A stretch of 34,656 nucleotides of DNA, from positions 1-34,656 of IMG/VR virus record IMGVR_UViG_3300042542_001685; one strand, given 5' to 3'. A program made the position numbers and the translations under genes. The number at the start of each line of letters is the position of its first letter. Position 1 is the first letter of the stretch. The notes below the pieces were generated by a model. That model searched no databases. It saw only the letters and a program-made list of their open reading frames with translations, and was not told the DNA's origin. The stretch is from a virus. Shown one piece after another: positions 1,518 through 28,988 of this stretch.

Positions 1518-3527
1518 GCCCATCTTGCGCATCATCATAGCGCTCGCATCGGCTTCGTTCGTGACGATCCATCCATTCTCGATCGGCTCGATGATGTGAG
1601 CCAGTAGCAGATCCGCGATCGGCTTTCCGGTTGCGCTCGGCTTGATGTAAACGCGCGCCGACGCCGGAGTGATGTCGAGATGGTTGATGAGATAATCCAC
1701 CATCGCCGATCGCGTGACGTAAGGAAGACCGTTCCGTTCCTCCGCACCGGATGACCACCAAGCGTTTTCGAACGCCTTGCGATGCCCATCGATCTTGCTG
1801 TCTTTCTTCGCGGTGACGGGAGGGGCTGCTTCGACCGGAACGGCACTCGAGACAGGCGCACCATCCTCGTCGAGCCATCCTTCGATATCGACCTTCTCAA
1901 GCCGCGCAAAGAGCGGATCGGCCAGTTCCGCGTCCTTCGACTTGCGCTGCACGAGCTGGATCGGCTCATCGCCTTTCGCCGGGACGACGCTGATTTCGAT
2001 ATCGAGCGCGCCGCGCCATGCCGAAGACCCGCGTGCGCGGTGCTGCGCTTCCTCCGATACTCCGGTGTGATGCACGAGCACGACCGAGCATCCGAATTCG
2101 CGCATGATGGCGTTGCACGCATCAAGCATCGTCTTCGCGTCCTGCGCGCTGTTCTCGTCGCCATTGAGGAAACGGTGCAGCGTATCGACCACGACCATAT
2201 GCGGTCGACGCGGCAACGACCGGATGTTCTCGACGACGCGCGAATATCCTTCGGCGGTATTGAGATCGCATCCGTCCTTCGAGATCCACATATCGAACGA
2301 CGCGGCTTTGTTGTGCTGCTTCCATGCCGCGACGCGCGAGCGAAGACCGTGGTGCCCTTCGCCCGCGAGGTAGACGACCGTTCCCGGCCGCACCTTCTGC
2401 CCGCGCCAATCTGATCGACCGGATGCGATATGAAGACACCAGTCGAGCACGACGAAGGTCTTACCGCCGCCGCTAGGACCGTGAACCATGATAAGAGCGT
2501 CGGACTGGATCCAGCGTTTGACGAGCCATGAGATCGGCGCGGGTTGCGCACAGAAATCGTCGGCCGGGATCAACCAATCGTCGATCGGCGGGTCGAGAAG
2601 CGCCGCGAGATCGTTTCCGGCCGCGACGTAATCATTCGCATCGCCGGGGATAGGAGGCATGACCATGCGCGCTCCGTGCTTCGCCGAGGCCTGTTCGGCA
2701 TAACGCTGCCCGACGCCGGATGCGTCGTTGTCTGCCACGATCACGATATCCTGCGTCGCTCCGTAACGCTGCCGGATCTCGCCCGTGACAGGCACGAGGT
2801 TCGACGCGGAATAAGCGACGATGACGGGTCGCTTCGTGACTTCATGGATGGTTGCCGCGGTCGCGAAGCCTTCGGCGATGTAGATCGGTCCCGGCTCGTC
2901 TGCGGCTCCGATCGTCCAGAAACAGCCGCCCGTTTGGGCGCCGGGATGATAAAGCTTCCCGCCTTCCGGATCGATGTATTGCAGCGAGGACAAGCCTCCA
3001 TCAGGCCGATAGAGCGGGACCACGAGACGACCGTCTCCGGTGACGCGAGCGCCATGCGGTTGAATGCCTTTGCGCCGCAGATACGGATGATCTGCGTGCG
3101 CACCGACGCAATCGGTCCAGATCGTCTCGACGGTGTTCGCCGCGACCTCGCGTTGCATCGCAAGCGCCGCATCGCGTGCGGCCTTCGCTTCGGTCATCCG
3201 GCGGATGTGCGCCATCTCTTCGGCCGGAGTGAGTTTCCGTCCGATATCCGCGCGCCATGCACTTTCGATCCCGGCACGCCAGCAGCCGAAGCGTCCCGCA
3301 GGAACGCCATCGGCATAAGCGATATACCATCCGGCCTTGTCACCGGATCCGCCGGAGCCTTTCGCGCCCGACCGGAAGCGATGCACGCGACCGTCAAGAA
3401 GGATGTTCGCCGGAGGCGCGAGGCCGGAAGCCGCGATCGCATCCGCAAGCTGCTGCTCCGGCGTCAGGTTTGATCCTTCGCTCGGAGGCGACCAGTTACC
3501 GCCGAGGATGTTGGTGAGATCAGCCAT
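1509..3527 (-). CDS. Primase-helicase (Toprim domain + RecA-like ATPase)
   Basis: This is a 672-residue replication protein. The N-terminal half has a Toprim fold: YIAEGFATA at about 215-223 and IVIVADNDASG at about 261-271 supply the acidic metal-binding residues. The C-terminal half is a RepA/DnaB-type RecA-like ATPase, with Walker A GPSGGGKT at 350-357, Walker B MVVVDTL at 444-450 and a sensor-like LVHHTG near 484-489. No CHC2 zinc finger is seen at the N-terminus, so the protein resembles the zinc-less Toprim-helicase fusions of phages and plasmids. It would unwind the phage fork and perhaps make primers. Its start overlaps the end of the Cro-like gene by 8 nt, so the two are probably cotranscribed from the promoter at 3741-3768. 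Confidence 0.92.
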   Translation of the reverse strand: MADLTNILGGNWSPPSEGSNLTPEQQLADAIAASGLAPPANILLDGRVHRFRSGAKGSGGSGDKAGWYIAYADGVPAGRFGCWRAGIESAWRADIGRKLTPAEEMAHIRRMTEAKAARDAALAMQREVAANTVETIWTDCVGAHADHPYLRRKGIQPHGARVTGDGRLVVPLYRPDGGLSSLQYIDPEGGKLYHPGAQTGGCFWTIGAADEPGPIYIAEGFATAATIHEVTKRPVIVAYSASNLVPVTGEIRQRYGATQDIVIVADNDASGVGQRYAEQASAKHGARMVMPPIPGDANDYVAAGNDLAALLDPPIDDWLIPADDFCAQPAPISWLVKRWIQSDALIMVHGPSGGGKTFVVLDWCLHIASGRSDWRGQKVRPGTVVYLAGEGHHGLRSRVAAWKQHNKAASFDMWISKDGCDLNTAEGYSRVVENIRSLPRRPHMVVVDTLHRFLNGDENSAQDAKTMLDACNAIMREFGCSVVLVHHTGVSEEAQHRARGSSAWRGALDIEISVVPAKGDEPIQLVQRKSKDAELADPLFARLEKVDIEGWLDEDGAPVSSAVPVEAAPPVTAKKDSKIDGHRKAFENAWWSSGAEERNGLPYVTRSAMVDYLINHLDITPASARVYIKPSATGKPIADLLLAHIIEPIENGWIVTNEADASAMMMRKMGGN

Positions 3528-3702
3528 TCATTCCGCTCCGTCCTTCGATGTATTTCGCGAGCCGCAGCACCGTCTCAAACCGCGGCTGCGTGCCGCCCTT
3601 CAAGAACCGATAGACCACGTTCGGATGCAGCCCCGTCGACCGCGCCACCGCTCGCACGTTCGAGTCTCGTAGAGCCGCCCGTATCTTGTCCAGATCGATC
3701 AT
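3520..3702 (-). CDS. Cro/CI-like small helix-turn-helix regulator
   Basis: This is a 60-residue DNA-binding protein made almost entirely of a helix-turn-helix. VRAVARSTGLHPNVVYRFLKG is the HTH core, followed by the RFETVLRLAKYI helix typical of Cro/CI-type folds. The ATG at 3702 is chosen because AGAGGTGAG lies directly before it, though the spacing is tight. A GTG at 3714 would add four residues but has no clear ribosome-binding site. It is the first gene of the leftward unit and borders the divergent promoter region, so it most likely controls the switch between the two early transcripts. There is no dimerisation or cleavage domain, so it is not a full lambda-type repressor. Confidence 0.8.
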   Translation of the reverse strand: MIDLDKIRAALRDSNVRAVARSTGLHPNVVYRFLKGGTQPRFETVLRLAKYIEGRSGMNG

Positions 3703-3736
3703 CTCACCTCTCACGAAAAAAATGTCCCGTTCGGGG

Positions 3737-3765
3737 TTGCATTATCGGGAGACGGTCTTTATTGT
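3737..3765 (+). promoter_or_regulatory. Rightward early promoter candidate
   Basis: TTGCAT (3737-3742), a 17-bp spacer and TATTGT (3760-3765) make a moderate sigma70-like promoter facing the early operon. It overlaps the stronger leftward promoter almost completely. A weak match of this kind usually needs regulation. Confidence 0.45.
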
Positions 3766-3768
3766 CAA
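3741..3768 (-). promoter_or_regulatory. Leftward sigma70-like promoter
   Basis: Read on the minus strand there is a perfect -35, TTGACA (3768-3763), a 16-bp spacer and a -10 of GATAAT (3746-3741, five of six consensus bases). It would drive the Cro-like regulator and the primase-helicase. Its -35 overlaps the -10 of the opposing rightward promoter, so the two should compete. Confidence 0.7.
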
Positions 3769-3805
3769 CCTATCGCCGGAACGGATAGGCCGACGCGGCG
3801 ATAGG
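3769..3805 (+). promoter_or_regulatory. 10-bp inverted repeat overlapping the first early ribosome-binding site
   Basis: CCTATCGCCG (3769-3778) and CGGCGATAGG (3796-3805) are perfect inverted copies separated by 17 nt. The right arm contains the AGG of the AGGAGA ribosome-binding site for the gene at 3817. It may be a protein operator or an RNA hairpin that masks translation of the leader gene. The arms also carry GATAGG-like text that recurs in the loop (GGATAGGC). Confidence 0.55.
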
Positions 3806-3816
3806 AGAGAACGAAG

Positions 3817-4038
3817 ATGACCACGCATAACGAAACCCTCCGCGCCATTACCACCCTGCTGCGCGCATCCGAGACCACGCAGGACCGGAGCTTCCGGGAC
3901 GCCTGCGCCCTCGTCGACTCGATTAATGACGATGCCGTGTTCGCCTCGGTCGTGGACCGTTGGCCGCATCTCATGAACTATGACGGCCGCGGGAACTGGG
4001 TCGGCTCCTGCGGGAACGAGAACGGCTGGACCGCATAA
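3817..4038 (+). CDS. Small hypothetical protein, first early gene
   Basis: This 73-residue protein is not recognised. The N-terminal half looks helical (ETLRAITTLLRASE...FRDACALVDSI). The C-terminal half is rich in Trp, Gly, Asn and Asp (NYDGRGNWVGSCGNENGWTA), suggesting a compact fold. AGGAGA sits 8 nt upstream of the ATG. As the first product of the rightward operon it would be made immediately on infection, a position often used for host take-over proteins. It is followed by a strong hairpin at 4060-4083 that may limit transcription into the genes beyond. Confidence 0.65.
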   Translation: MTTHNETLRAITTLLRASETTQDRSFRDACALVDSINDDAVFASVVDRWPHLMNYDGRGNWVGSCGNENGWTA

Positions 4039-4059
4039 CGCAGCGCTAACGACAACAAC

Positions 4060-4083
4060 GCCGCGTCTCTTCGGAGGCGCGGC
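4060..4083 (+). terminator. UUCG-loop hairpin, attenuator or weak terminator
   Basis: GCCGCGTCTC pairs with GAGGCGCGGC over 10 bp (one G-U) around a TTCG tetraloop, an exceptionally stable RNA hairpin. Only ATTTCC follows, so termination would be partial. It lies between the first and second early genes and may set their ratio or protect an RNA 3' end. Confidence 0.5.
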
Positions 4084-4102
4084 ATTTCCGCCGGAGCAAG
4101 AC

Positions 4103-4336
4103 ATGAACATCGATCGTCCCGCCCGCACCGTTGCCGATATCAACAAGATCCTTTGCTCGCACGGTCATGCTGAGCGCCTGATGAAAGGACAAGGCTATGT
4201 CTACTGGACAGACGGGACGACGCCGGAATGGGACAGTTCAATCATCTACGTCTATCGGCTCTCGGATATGACCATTCGGGAATATCTCGAAGATCATAAT
4301 GCGAGAGTTTGTAAGCATCTTAATCGCGACCGCTAA
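4103..4336 (+). CDS. Small hypothetical early protein
   Basis: This 77-residue protein starts at MNIDRPARTVADINKIL and is not recognised. The ATG at 4103 is preceded by GGAG with a 6-nt spacer. The frame is open further upstream, but that part covers the UUCG hairpin and has no ribosome-binding site. The middle is aromatic and reads like a small single-domain protein (GQGYVYWTDGTTPEWDSSIIYVYRLSDMT). It lies 24 nt before the Sak4-like gene and is probably cotranscribed with it. Confidence 0.6.
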   Translation: MNIDRPARTVADINKILCSHGHAERLMKGQGYVYWTDGTTPEWDSSIIYVYRLSDMTIREYLEDHNARVCKHLNRDR

Positions 4337-4360
4337 GGTCGAAACATAGGAGCGAAGATA

Positions 4361-5035
4361 ATGGCTATCTCACTTAAGACAACCGGAACGCTCGCAAGCG
4401 CTGGCGTTAAGCTTCTGGTCTACGGACAGGCCGGAGCCGGAAAGACAAGCCTGATCCGCACGCTGCCGGATCCGGTCGTTCTCTCCGCAGAAGGCGGATT
4501 GCTTTCGATCCAAGACGCGAACCTCCCGTATATCGAGATCGCCGATATGGCGACGCTGCGCGAAGCATACACTTGGCTCGGCTCGGACGAAGGCAAGCGC
4601 TTCAAGTCGGTAGCGCTCGACAGCATCTCGGAAATCGCCGAGGTCGTGTTGAACGCGGAGAAGAAGACCGCGAAGGATCCGCGTCAGGCTTACGGTGCAA
4701 TGCAGGAGCAGATGGCTGATATCATCCGCGCGTTTCGCGATCTTCCCGGTCGCCATGTCTACATGAGCGCGAAGCTTGAAAAGGCGCAGGACGAAACGGG
4801 ACGCATCCTCTATTCGCCGTCGATGCCGGGGAACAAGTCGGGACAGCAACTCCCGTATTTCTTCGACGAAGTGCTCGCGCTCCGCGTCGAGCGGGACGCC
4901 GAAGGCAACCCGCAGCGCGCGTTGATGTGCGACAGCGACGGTCTTTGGATCGCTAAGGATCGCTCGGGCAAGCTTGCTCAATGGGAAGCGCCCGACCTTG
5001 GCGAGATTATCTCGAAGATCGGAGGTCGGTCGTGA
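4361..5035 (+). CDS. Sak4-like RecA-fold ATPase (single-strand annealing/recombination)
   Basis: This 224-residue P-loop protein has Walker A GQAGAGKTS at about 22-30 and a Walker B-like strand KSVALDSISE at about 82-91, the layout of the phage AAA_24/Sak4 family. Known Sak4 proteins are RecA-core-only enzymes that promote single-strand annealing together with a phage ssDNA-binding protein. Here the DUF669 protein two genes downstream, a nuclease and a helicase complete the usual recombination set. The stop overlaps the GTG of the next gene. A TAGGAGCG ribosome-binding site lies upstream. A more general phage nucleotide-binding role is the alternative. Confidence 0.82.
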   Translation: MAISLKTTGTLASAGVKLLVYGQAGAGKTSLIRTLPDPVVLSAEGGLLSIQDANLPYIEIADMATLREAYTWLGSDEGKRFKSVALDSISEIAEVVLNAEKKTAKDPRQAYGAMQEQMADIIRAFRDLPGRHVYMSAKLEKAQDETGRILYSPSMPGNKSGQQLPYFFDEVLALRVERDAEGNPQRALMCDSDGLWIAKDRSGKLAQWEAPDLGEIISKIGGRS

Positions 5036-25636: not shown

Positions 25637-26147
25637 CCCAGCACCTTTGCATTTCTGCGCATGTGAACCGGACCTTTGCGGGATCCGAAATAGAAGCCTT
25701 CGCGATAGACCAGATCGTCTTATCTCTCTGGTAGGCGTTGTTGAGCGCCCGTTCTTCCGGTTGGTCGTGCCAATACCGACGATCGGTCGCATACCCATCC
25801 ATACCACAAACTCGGATTTCATCATATCCGAGGAAATCGGCAAGCCATACCGCTTTGGGACCGGATAGATTGAAATTCGGGATGATCCCGGCCCAGATCA
25901 TTTTATCGCCGCGCAAATCTCGGAAGTGCGACACCTTGTAGGCCGGATGGTCTTTGACGAGATCGAAGACGGGACGATCGGAAAAGAGAACGTAGGACAA
26001 CGGCAGAAGCAGCGAGTGCTGATTGACGCCGATCAGGTCGAAGCGCTGCGGCAGATGATAGATATCATGCAGCAAGCTAGGAGCGCCGCCGAGAACCGCG
26101 ACGCTTTCCCCTTTGTGCCGATCTTTATAGATGATGAGGTCGTGCAT
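25626..26147 (-). CDS. DUF115/MptE-like Rossmann protein (possible glycosyltransferase-like moron)
   Basis: The start is set at ATG 26147 (MHDLIIYKDRHKGESVAVLGGAPSLLHD), directly after a transcription terminator. The frame is open further upstream, but that part would translate the terminator hairpin. The 173-residue product has a Rossmann-like VAVLGGAPSL, RFDLIGVNQH, SYVLFSDRPVFDLV and a late IRVCGMDGY, reminiscent of DUF115/MptE-like proteins, some of which act on sugars. No ribosome-binding site is visible. It is out of place between capsid and neck genes, so it may be an added cargo gene. Function stays uncertain. Confidence 0.6.
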   Translation of the reverse strand: MHDLIIYKDRHKGESVAVLGGAPSLLHDIYHLPQRFDLIGVNQHSLLLPLSYVLFSDRPVFDLVKDHPAYKVSHFRDLRGDKMIWAGIIPNFNLSGPKAVWLADFLGYDEIRVCGMDGYATDRRYWHDQPEERALNNAYQRDKTIWSIAKASISDPAKVRFTCAEMQRCWDEN

Positions 26148-26149
26148 AT

Positions 26150-26175
26150 AAAAATGGGCGGCCGAAGCCGCCCAT
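26150..26175 (-). terminator. Intrinsic terminator after the capsid gene
   Basis: On the minus strand ATGGGCGGC pairs with GCCGCCCAT around a TTCG loop, followed by TTTT and A. It begins 18 nt after the capsid stop. It should reduce transcription into the neck and tail genes, keeping capsid message in excess. Genes downstream would depend on read-through. Confidence 0.88.
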
Positions 26176-26192
26176 TCCTTTCGTGCCACGGA

Positions 26193-27455
26193 TTAGGTGG
26201 TGACGATTTCCTTACAAGCCGCGAAGGACTGCGCATTGCGCACAGCAACGTCCACGTCTTGGAAGAAGGCGATGCGCGTGCCGCCCGAGGTCGAGAGCGA
26301 CGACGTGTCGACCACGATATCGAGACCGGAGAACATGCCGATCATGAGATCGTTGAAGTTGCCGAAGATCATCGCCGAAAGAGCCGAGCCCGAGCCCTTC
26401 GTCAGATCGGACGGAACGAGGTTCGTTTCCGCGACCTGATAGCCGAGCAGGTTGTTCGTCTCGCCGAGGATGAAGTTACCTTCGACGCCGGAGGTCTGCT
26501 TCGCCGTCTGACGCAGCTTCGACACGACCTTCGAGTTCGTGAGATAAGCGAGCGAACCCGTAAGAGCGTTGTCGATCGCAACTTCACGCTGAAGGTTGAC
26601 GACGGTGGCATAGGTCGGAGCGCCGCCGTTGGTGCCGATCGTAACCGCGCCGATGCCCGAGGTGCCGAGGATGCCGACAGGCTCGTTCGAGCCGCCGCCT
26701 TCGATCGCCACTTCGTCGATCTTGCCCGCAATCTGACGAGTGATGTCGTCGCGGAGAACCGCTTCGACAGACGGGTCGGACTGGATCATGAGGCGACGAG
26801 ACAGGTCGACGTAACCCGCGACCGTCTTCGGCGACATCGTGACCTGAGCGAAGACGGGAGCGCCTTCGGTCGGAGCCGAGCCTTCAGCGACGAAGGCAAC
26901 GGCAGTGCGGGTCGACAGCTTCGGGATCGCCACGTTGCCCTGCAGACCCGTCATCATGCGAGCGCCGAGGCTCGAGATGACGAGCGCTTCGCGCAGCGCG
27001 TCGATGAAGAGATCACCGCGGTGATCGGTGCCGACCAGATAGCCGCCCTTCGACGTGCCCGTGCCGATGCCCGTCGTCACATCGCGCTGCGACCAGCGGA
27101 TGTCGTTCGGGACGTAGAAGCCGCGAGCGTCCTTGCCGGTACGCTTGGCGATTTCGTCGGACAGTTCGCGCTCGAAGCCGGCCTTGCGCCAGTCGTTCGA
27201 AGCCGCCGCGTTGATCGCGCGGAGGAGGCTATAGTTGCGCTTTTCGGCGACGGTCAGGCCGACCATGGCGTTCGAAGCGAAAGCTTCGGTGCCGATTGCA
27301 TCGAGGATTACGCCACGGAACTGCTCGACGGAGAGACCGTCAGCAACAGCCTTTTCGGCGAGGTCGCGCTTGTTGTGCTTCGCGCCGAGGTCCATGATGG
27401 ACTTGGCGTTGCGAGCGAATTCCGCCCGCATTTCGTCGTGATTAACTTCGGTCAT
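26193..27455 (-). CDS. Major capsid protein from internal start
   Basis: TAAGGAG (27468-27462) lies 6 nt upstream of an in-frame ATG at 27455, so a 420-residue protein beginning MTEVNHDEMRAEFARNAK could be made independently of the fusion. This size fits an HK97-type precursor with an N-terminal scaffold-like segment of about 100 residues that is cleaved off. The preceding residues (IPKITVVKESP) show no stop codon, so the long fusion should also form. The arrangement would give many capsid subunits per protease, as capsids need. Confidence 0.85.
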   Translation of the reverse strand: MTEVNHDEMRAEFARNAKSIMDLGAKHNKRDLAEKAVADGLSVEQFRGVILDAIGTEAFASNAMVGLTVAEKRNYSLLRAINAAASNDWRKAGFERELSDEIAKRTGKDARGFYVPNDIRWSQRDVTTGIGTGTSKGGYLVGTDHRGDLFIDALREALVISSLGARMMTGLQGNVAIPKLSTRTAVAFVAEGSAPTEGAPVFAQVTMSPKTVAGYVDLSRRLMIQSDPSVEAVLRDDITRQIAGKIDEVAIEGGGSNEPVGILGTSGIGAVTIGTNGGAPTYATVVNLQREVAIDNALTGSLAYLTNSKVVSKLRQTAKQTSGVEGNFILGETNNLLGYQVAETNLVPSDLTKGSGSALSAMIFGNFNDLMIGMFSGLDIVVDTSSLSTSGGTRIAFFQDVDVAVRNAQSFAACKEIVTT

Positions 27456-28988
27456 GGGACTCTCCTTAACGACCGTGATTTTCGGGATCTCTGCGCTTCG
27501 TCCGACTCCCACGGATGCATCAGCGGGGATAGAGACGACAGAGACTTCAAGAGGGGTCCAGTCGTTAACGCGGAAGATCGTCCCATCTGCCGCATCTTCT
27601 CGGACCATGTTGTTGACGCGATAGCCGACCGAGATGTTCGACCGGATCCCGTCCACGACATCATCGAAGACCTCTTTAGCCAGTCCGCTTCTCCCGAAGC
27701 GAACCGTCGCTCGCATCACGCGAGCCGAGCTATCGACGGTGATATCTTCGACAATGCCGATCTGCTGCCGCGGATCGTGGTCGAGCAGCAAAGGCGCGCG
27801 ACCGGATCCGAGGAAACTAAGATCGATGCTCGACGAGGTATGGTCGAGCACTTCGACGCCGAAAGACCTTTCGACAGGCATTTCGGACGAAACTGCAATG
27901 CGAACCCGACGCGAGGTTTCGTCGACGGGTTTCGCGCCCATAAGCATGGAACGATGCGAGAGATCCGCCGCGCGGTCCTCATTGAGCATCATGCCGGGAG
28001 CCATTTCCATCGCGATATCATCTTCGATATCATCGGCTTCGGCTTCCGGCTCTTCCATTTCCGGCTTCGGGTCGGTGTCGATTTCGACTTCGACCGTGAC
28101 CATCATTCGCTGTTCGTCGGTCATGTCGTCCTCGCCGATAGCCTCTTCGAATTCGATCGGCGAATAATCATGTTCATCGAGCCATGCACGCGCCGCAGAC
28201 GGTGAGAACAATCTACTGTCAAAACGGATGGCTTGCAATTCTGCCGTACCGCCCGTGATACCATAGATCGCATCGATGCCTTCGCCGAAGGCGTCGTTTT
28301 CGCGCCGGAAGCGTTCGTATTGATCGGGATCGCGAAGCCGCGCCGCGTGTTCGTTCGGATAGGGACGCTCGTCATAACCGCGCAGTGCGTTGATTTTGCG
28401 CAGCGTCGAGAAGCGATGCCCGACGAGCGTTTCGGTCGCTTCCCAGCCTTCCGATCCTTCGCGATAGATGCGGATCAACGCAGCCGGATCTTCCGGCGTC
28501 GCGTTGATTGAAAATTCGGAGTCGGGGATGCCGAGAACGCCTTCGCGCATGATGTGTTCGATCCGGCCGCGAGCGGTGCCGCCGGAGGAGTCCCACGACA
28601 CGAAATCACCGACTTCGAGATCGCCGGGAGCCGCGCGATCGTTTTCATCGATCGAGTCCATACGAGCCGCCTTTGCTTCTGCCCATGATTTGCCGGGATC
28701 GCCGCCCCAAAGAGCCCATGCGATCCGACCGTTCGACGGATAGCCATCCTCACCGGGACGGAAACCTTCGGCCTGTTTATCAACCTCGTGGCGCGCGAAG
28801 AAACTCGTCATCCGCCCGATCGTCTCCGGCGAAAGATCGACCTTGTTCTTGATGTCGCGCGCGCGAGCGATCCCAACCTCGGTGCCGCCGCGGCCGAATT
28901 CTTGCCGCCACGCGAGACCGCGTTCGGCTTCTTCGGCCATCGCGTCGCTCGGCACGAGATTGATTTCGACGCCTTTATACGTTGCCAT
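26193..28988 (-). CDS. Multi-domain fusion: N-terminal modules, prohead protease and HK97 major capsid
   Basis: One frame of 931 codons. Residues 1-115 hold GLAWRQEFGRGGTEVG, FFARHEVD and GRIAWALWGGDPGKSW, a module often separate in phages. Residues 120-285 resemble a DUF2945 Tudor-like strand set (VGDFVSWDSSGGTARGRI) plus RPYPNEHAARLRDPDQYERF and QAIRF. Residues 335-500 are an S78-type protease, with LLLDHDP (H404) and RSNISVGYRV (S453), about 50 apart as in HK97. Residues 512-931 are a capsid with a helical delta-like segment and an HK97 fold (GGYLVGTD, VGILGTSG, FGNFNDLMIGMF). GAGG precedes the first ATG. A strong internal start lies at 27455. Confidence 0.9.
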   Translation of the reverse strand: MATYKGVEINLVPSDAMAEEAERGLAWRQEFGRGGTEVGIARARDIKNKVDLSPETIGRMTSFFARHEVDKQAEGFRPGEDGYPSNGRIAWALWGGDPGKSWAEAKAARMDSIDENDRAAPGDLEVGDFVSWDSSGGTARGRIEHIMREGVLGIPDSEFSINATPEDPAALIRIYREGSEGWEATETLVGHRFSTLRKINALRGYDERPYPNEHAARLRDPDQYERFRRENDAFGEGIDAIYGITGGTAELQAIRFDSRLFSPSAARAWLDEHDYSPIEFEEAIGEDDMTDEQRMMVTVEVEIDTDPKPEMEEPEAEADDIEDDIAMEMAPGMMLNEDRAADLSHRSMLMGAKPVDETSRRVRIAVSSEMPVERSFGVEVLDHTSSSIDLSFLGSGRAPLLLDHDPRQQIGIVEDITVDSSARVMRATVRFGRSGLAKEVFDDVVDGIRSNISVGYRVNNMVREDAADGTIFRVNDWTPLEVSVVSIPADASVGVGRSAEIPKITVVKESPMTEVNHDEMRAEFARNAKSIMDLGAKHNKRDLAEKAVADGLSVEQFRGVILDAIGTEAFASNAMVGLTVAEKRNYSLLRAINAAASNDWRKAGFERELSDEIAKRTGKDARGFYVPNDIRWSQRDVTTGIGTGTSKGGYLVGTDHRGDLFIDALREALVISSLGARMMTGLQGNVAIPKLSTRTAVAFVAEGSAPTEGAPVFAQVTMSPKTVAGYVDLSRRLMIQSDPSVEAVLRDDITRQIAGKIDEVAIEGGGSNEPVGILGTSGIGAVTIGTNGGAPTYATVVNLQREVAIDNALTGSLAYLTNSKVVSKLRQTAKQTSGVEGNFILGETNNLLGYQVAETNLVPSDLTKGSGSALSAMIFGNFNDLMIGMFSGLDIVVDTSSLSTSGGTRIAFFQDVDVAVRNAQSFAACKEIVTT
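27462..27468 (-). promoter_or_regulatory. Internal Shine-Dalgarno for capsid
   Basis: TAAGGAG on the minus strand matches the 16S anti-Shine-Dalgarno over seven bases, with 6 nt to the ATG at 27455. It is a better site than most real gene starts in the window, and decides the internal capsid start. Confidence 0.85.

Follow-up and report, generated by a model that had tools for sequence, protein, structure and literature searches.

Sequence evidence for a second in-frame start at the junction of fused prohead protease-major capsid genes in tailed phages

Background

In phages lambda (C/Nu3) and Mu (I/Z), the 3' part of the protease gene is also translated alone from an in-frame internal start; that product is a scaffold protein in its own right, many copies of which co-assemble with a few that bear the protease. 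In HK97, the protease (gp4) and the capsid protein (gp5) are encoded by two genes, and the capsid protein carries its scaffold (delta) domain attached at the N-terminus (PMC10275583). Genes in which the prohead protease is fused to the major capsid protein have been described earlier (PMC5513430), and the part of that paper drawn on here describes one fusion gene and mentions no second start. The names that denote this fusion class are phrog_617, NCBIfam NF045541, Arthrobacter clusters AM/AU/AN and Rhodococcus RRH1. No earlier account of an internal start in a protease-capsid fusion turned up in the open-access literature, but one may exist.

The DNA analyzed here is a stretch of 34,656 nt from a virus (IMG/VR record IMGVR_UViG_3300042542_001685, positions 1 to 34,656; hereafter, the window). 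A preliminary description, made from its sequence alone, had stated that fused protease-capsid genes are known in some phages, in agreement with phrog_617, NF045541 and the part of PMC5513430 referred to above. Like the phrog_617-type fusions, one gene of the window encodes an S78 protease followed by a capsid protein in a single ORF, with the catalytic His and Ser present, while differing from the phrog_617/NF045541-type fusions by the addition of an N-terminal extension of about 335 aa. It resembles HK97 gp4/gp5 in having an S78-type protease, a delta-like N-terminal domain and the HK97 fold, but combines them in one frame with a nested start rather than in two genes. In contrast to the lambda and Mu systems, the predicted inner product is a delta-like domain plus an HK97-fold capsid, not a scaffold lacking a capsid fold, and it would be the shell subunit itself that bears the protease. 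Fused genes are known, and so are nested starts for scaffolds; the surprise is the recurrence of a nested capsid start across unrelated fusions.

Gene Layout and Domains

The long ORF (26193-28988, minus strand, as are all features given below unless stated otherwise) begins with ATG and encodes a predicted protein of 931 aa and 100.8 kDa, consisting of the N-terminal extension, the S78 prohead protease, a delta-like domain and the HK97-fold capsid. Reading-frame analysis gave one uninterrupted frame with zero stops between the protease and capsid parts, as had been described, and the Pfam domains Peptidase_S78 (27516-27800, residues 397-491; 26.4 bits, cut-off 21) and Phage_capsid (26217-27047, residues 648-924; E 3e-34) both lie within it. 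The two residues that the preliminary description had named for the S78 protease, H404 (27777-27779) and S453 (27630-27632), are invariant in all 21 divergent homologues and are good candidates for the catalytic His and Ser. Residues 350-928 match phrog_617, a single family of major head proteins (PHROGs, E 1e-137), while the NF045541 profile aligned with residues 355-574 only, at 135 bits against a curated cut-off of 525.

Upstream of the long gene are those for the terminase large subunit, head-tail joining and the portal, and downstream are head closure and tail genes. The first 14 nt of the long form (28975-28988) also belong to the 3' end of the portal gene, and the Shine-Dalgarno (SD) match of its start, at -5.8 kcal/mol, is weaker than that of the internal start described below. 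Immediately 3' of the capsid stop codon is a UUCG hairpin resembling an intrinsic terminator (26150-26179; -22.4 kcal/mol, z -5.6), and the Mano and Mica records have a terminator annotated at the matching position.

The Internal Start Site and Its Predicted Product

Within the long gene, the sequence TAAGGAG (27462-27468) is followed by the 6-nt spacer AGTCCC and an in-frame ATG at codon 512 (M512; 27453-27455), which opens a nested reading frame (26193-27455) for a predicted capsid precursor of 420 aa beginning MTEVNHDEM. This arrangement is exactly as first described, and the sizes then given for the two products, about 100 and 45 kDa, agree with the predicted masses of 100.8 and 44.3 kDa. 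The SD match at 27455 was calculated as -9.2 kcal/mol, an energy that presumes the usual anti-SD in the host. It ranks second among the window's 28 listed start candidates and is equalled by no other in-frame ATG of the gene (27 in all), and matches as strong occur at only 0.2% of all codon positions. Of 49 homologues, 35 have a stronger SD at the internal site than at the start of the long form.

In a structural model of the 420-aa product (mean pLDDT 74), helices at residues 6-106 and a low-confidence stretch at 123-147 precede an HK97 fold, and its fold matches include PDB 8gta and HK97. In the numbering of the long protein, the delta/scaffold-like domain, all-helical by prediction, covers residues 517-617 (27138-27440), and the low-confidence stretch, which is probably flexible and the likely zone of maturation cleavage, covers residues 634-658 (27015-27089). 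The model thus predicts the layout of HK97 gp5: M512 opens a delta-like, helical domain of roughly 100 residues, and the HK97 fold follows.

The nearest solved capsid is that of roseophage R4C (PDB 8gta; E 7e-36), the virion of which has a T=7 shell with 415 copies of the capsid protein (PMC10276861). The main text of that paper (PMC10276861) is silent on both protease and cleavage, and the sequence record calls the gene (vBDshSR4C_006, MK882925, 1402-3291) 'major capsid protein' only, yet it is a fused protease-capsid gene of 629 aa. As in the window, the ATG with the strongest SD (GGAGG, -9.5 kcal/mol) is at the protease-capsid junction, at codon 189, equivalent to M512; unlike the window gene, R4C has no long N-terminal extension. 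The deposited chain begins at residue 362, opposite residue 648 of the window protein, and this may be the mature N-terminus or merely the limit of the modelled part.

Homologues with the two parts separated, which the preliminary description had suggested looking for, do occur. One unfused relative (L058) has a separate capsid gene of 430 aa with its own AAGGAG, and the encoded protein is 42-43% identical, its first residue aligning with M512. The gene order in this relative is inverted, the capsid gene (2956-4248) being followed by a separate S78 protease gene (4334-4930). Protease and capsid are also separate in Dulem virus 34 and in two further loci (L191, L193).

Conservation and Selection at the Internal Start

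Homologues were taken from 64 loci of viral contigs, to which annotated phages were added, and conservation was counted in 21 representatives, all sharing less than 80% identity. The M512 column has Met in 19 of the 21, and in 16 an SD at least as strong as -5 kcal/mol. The mean SD at this column is -6.9, and that of the other in-frame ATGs (460) is -2.7 (p 9e-6). No more than 15 codons from the junction, 16 of 21 representatives (76%) have an ATG with such an SD, against 16% of 31-codon control windows in the same genes; the binomial probability of this enrichment is 2e-9 if the representatives are independent, and kinship within each family inflates p-values of this kind. Three apparent exceptions (L053, L190, L198) result from shifted alignment, and each has an SD-bearing ATG nearby.

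Across the whole collection, almost all homologues have ATG at the M512 column, and the SD before it varies in sequence, spacing and frame: TAAGGAG, CAAAGGAGT, TTGGAGGAT, TCGGAGGGT, AAGGAGG and GAGGAGG. All three reading frames are used to encode it, and the linker peptides differ (KES, QRSD, LEDV, SEGL, EEGT). When codons were replaced at random by synonymous ones with the protein fixed, the resulting sites were weaker than the real ones (Fisher p 0.022 for the window family and 0.0023 for 36 genes). Over the eight codons before the ATG, synonymous difference falls to 0.00 in the clade of the window, against a gene mean of 0.32, and to 0.03 (versus 0.31) and 0.17 (versus 0.41) in two further clades, a dip with a combined p of 2e-4. 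SD conservation, codon choice and the synonymous dip are together signs of present selection at the nucleotide level and not of a fossil, and at the level of sequence the protease gene contains an internal in-frame start with a ribosome-binding site under selection.

RNA structure around the internal starts was also considered. It is lower than the gene average in 36 of 36 cases (p 1e-11), but a codon-shuffle null traces most of this effect to the amino acids of the linker, and accessibility of the RNA is for that reason not counted as evidence.

Among fused homologues, an SD at the junction is missing in cyanophages S-CBS1 and S-LBS1 (L005 and L082) and in three other loci (L063, L064, L068), the last three of which keep the in-frame ATG despite the missing SD. 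It is possible that initiation in the hosts of these five is SD-independent.

Other Fused Protease-Capsid Genes

Fusions unrelated to that of the window were found to have the same feature. In the S1-like genes, a protease part with a weak S78 match is joined to a different Pfam capsid family, Phage_capsid_4, and a junction ATG with an SD of -5 kcal/mol or better is present in 31 of 38 representatives, compared to 14% of control windows. The mean SD at the junction site is -7.7, against -3.8 at the conserved first Met of the same genes. A nested start was also seen in 10 of 19 Jilinvirus-like genes, with modest SD scores, in four of five VP882-like genes, and in the single example of a Helicobacter prophage fusion. 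Single actinophage examples are Arthrobacter phages Maggie (codon 160) and Gordon (codon 241, -10.8) and Rhodococcus RRH1 (codon 274). A hidden second start is present in every unrelated fused group checked, and not in all members of each. That it may be overlooked in annotation had been anticipated, and the examined records of fused genes bear this out, as each has one CDS only and in none is the nested start annotated.

Proposed Mechanism and Alternatives

Taken with the above, the sequence data support the earlier two-product interpretation, in which we infer both products and their ratio; each of its predictions that could be checked against sequence was borne out. Very probably the gene has two in-frame starts, and 101-kDa protease-capsid molecules, few in number, assemble together with a large majority of 44-kDa precursors. 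Ribosomes starting at 28988, with its weaker SD and portal overlap, would make the 101-kDa protein (extension, S78 protease, delta-like domain and capsid), and those starting at the strong SD of 27455 would make the 44-kDa delta-capsid precursor, the counterpart of HK97 gp5. Since the capsid part is common to both, the two forms could be built into one and the same prohead, and the protease would come in on the rare long copies. The protease would then trim all subunits up to about residue 640-648, so that both forms mature, and the internal start would set the ratio of protease to capsid while leaving the gene unsplit. Packing considerations point the same way: if the head is T=7, as in R4C, and the entire extension lies inside, a full set of 415 segments covering residues 1-640 would have a mass of 29 MDa and a volume of about 35,500 nm3, compared to 33,500 nm3 for a sphere of 20-nm radius. 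A capsid made of long subunits only would overfill the head, and most subunits should therefore be short with a minority long; the ranking of the SD matches and the packing estimate both fit a rare long form and an abundant short one.

The alternative that fares best is that only the 931-aa protein is made, assembled and cleaved, the internal ATG and SD being the fossil of a formerly separate capsid gene. The continuous frame agrees with this, a fossil is conceivable given the existence of unfused relatives whose capsid gene has an SD of its own, and maturation cleavage is in any case expected far downstream of M512. Against it are the constraint at the nucleotide level, the shifting of the SD between frames and among peptides, and the persistence of the site down to about 40% identity and in capsid families that are unrelated, together with the free variation in length of the N-terminal extension and the overfilling of a T=7 prohead by 415 long copies, all of which make a single product unlikely.

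In herpesviruses (UL26/UL26.5), a shorter transcript arises from a promoter inside the protease part, and a comparable transcript in the window virus could be the main source of the capsid precursor, with the internal site as its ordinary ribosome-binding site. The same two proteins would result and the same ribosome-binding site would be preserved, but a scan for sigma-70-like promoters, confined to that type, found none on the minus strand of the region, and in bacteria an internal ribosome-binding site is enough by itself, so that this explanation is considered highly improbable. SD-like motifs within genes have been proposed to slow ribosomes, and the position of the site at a domain boundary would suit a pause between protease and capsid that aids folding with no initiation, yet a pause has no need of an ATG at a fixed distance, and with Met kept in 19 of 21 representatives, as well as in 28 of 38 S1-like genes (27 of these 28 with an SD of -5 kcal/mol or better), it is barely credible.

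With two in-frame starts as the preferred reading, it appears fairly likely that a second in-frame gene is, as a rule, concealed within the protease-capsid fusions of tailed phages. The boundary start would have persisted, or arisen anew, in several unrelated fusions involving at least two Pfam capsid families, the strengths of the two starts would set the number of protease-bearing subunits per prohead, and annotation pipelines would miss the start and misname the precursor. Such genes would show how a low-copy enzyme can be joined to the most abundant structural protein of a phage while sparing each shell hundreds of proteases. A rule for annotation follows, namely to seek an SD and ATG at the protease-capsid junction, and the predicted capsid precursor would be corrected for many sequenced phages, including R4C with its solved virion. 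The two start sites of the gene can be tuned by silent changes, offering a way to study the number of proteases that a prohead requires.

The N-Terminal Extension and Antisense Reading Frames

The preliminary description had the site right, and missed both its occurrence in unrelated fused genes and the N-terminal extension (27984-28988, residues 1-335), which differs in length among homologues. Its predicted structure was too weak (pLDDT 56) and a fold search returned zero significant matches. The first 120 residues or so belong to phrog_2859, a family annotated as unknown that is also found in the protease genes of other phages. Annotated prohead or capsid-maturation protease genes of Pontimonas phage phiPsal1 and Actinomycetia phage DSL-LC01 contain this part, and it is found as well in Vibrio phages and Halorubrum tailed virus 4. 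A Hva1_TUDOR-like match (28470-28610, residues 127-173) is just under the cut-off (23.5 versus 24.1 bits) and is missing in some homologues. Pieces of the extension are missing in certain homologues (e.g., L008 and L017), and the extension therefore seems to travel with the protease.

Opposite the protease-capsid gene, the plus strand of the window has an open frame of 759 aa (25926-28205), which is probably a consequence of codon bias in the real gene. In VP882 (EF057797, locus L070), two hypothetical genes antisense to the fused gene (locus positions 1618-1815 and 2407-2814) are likewise probably spurious.
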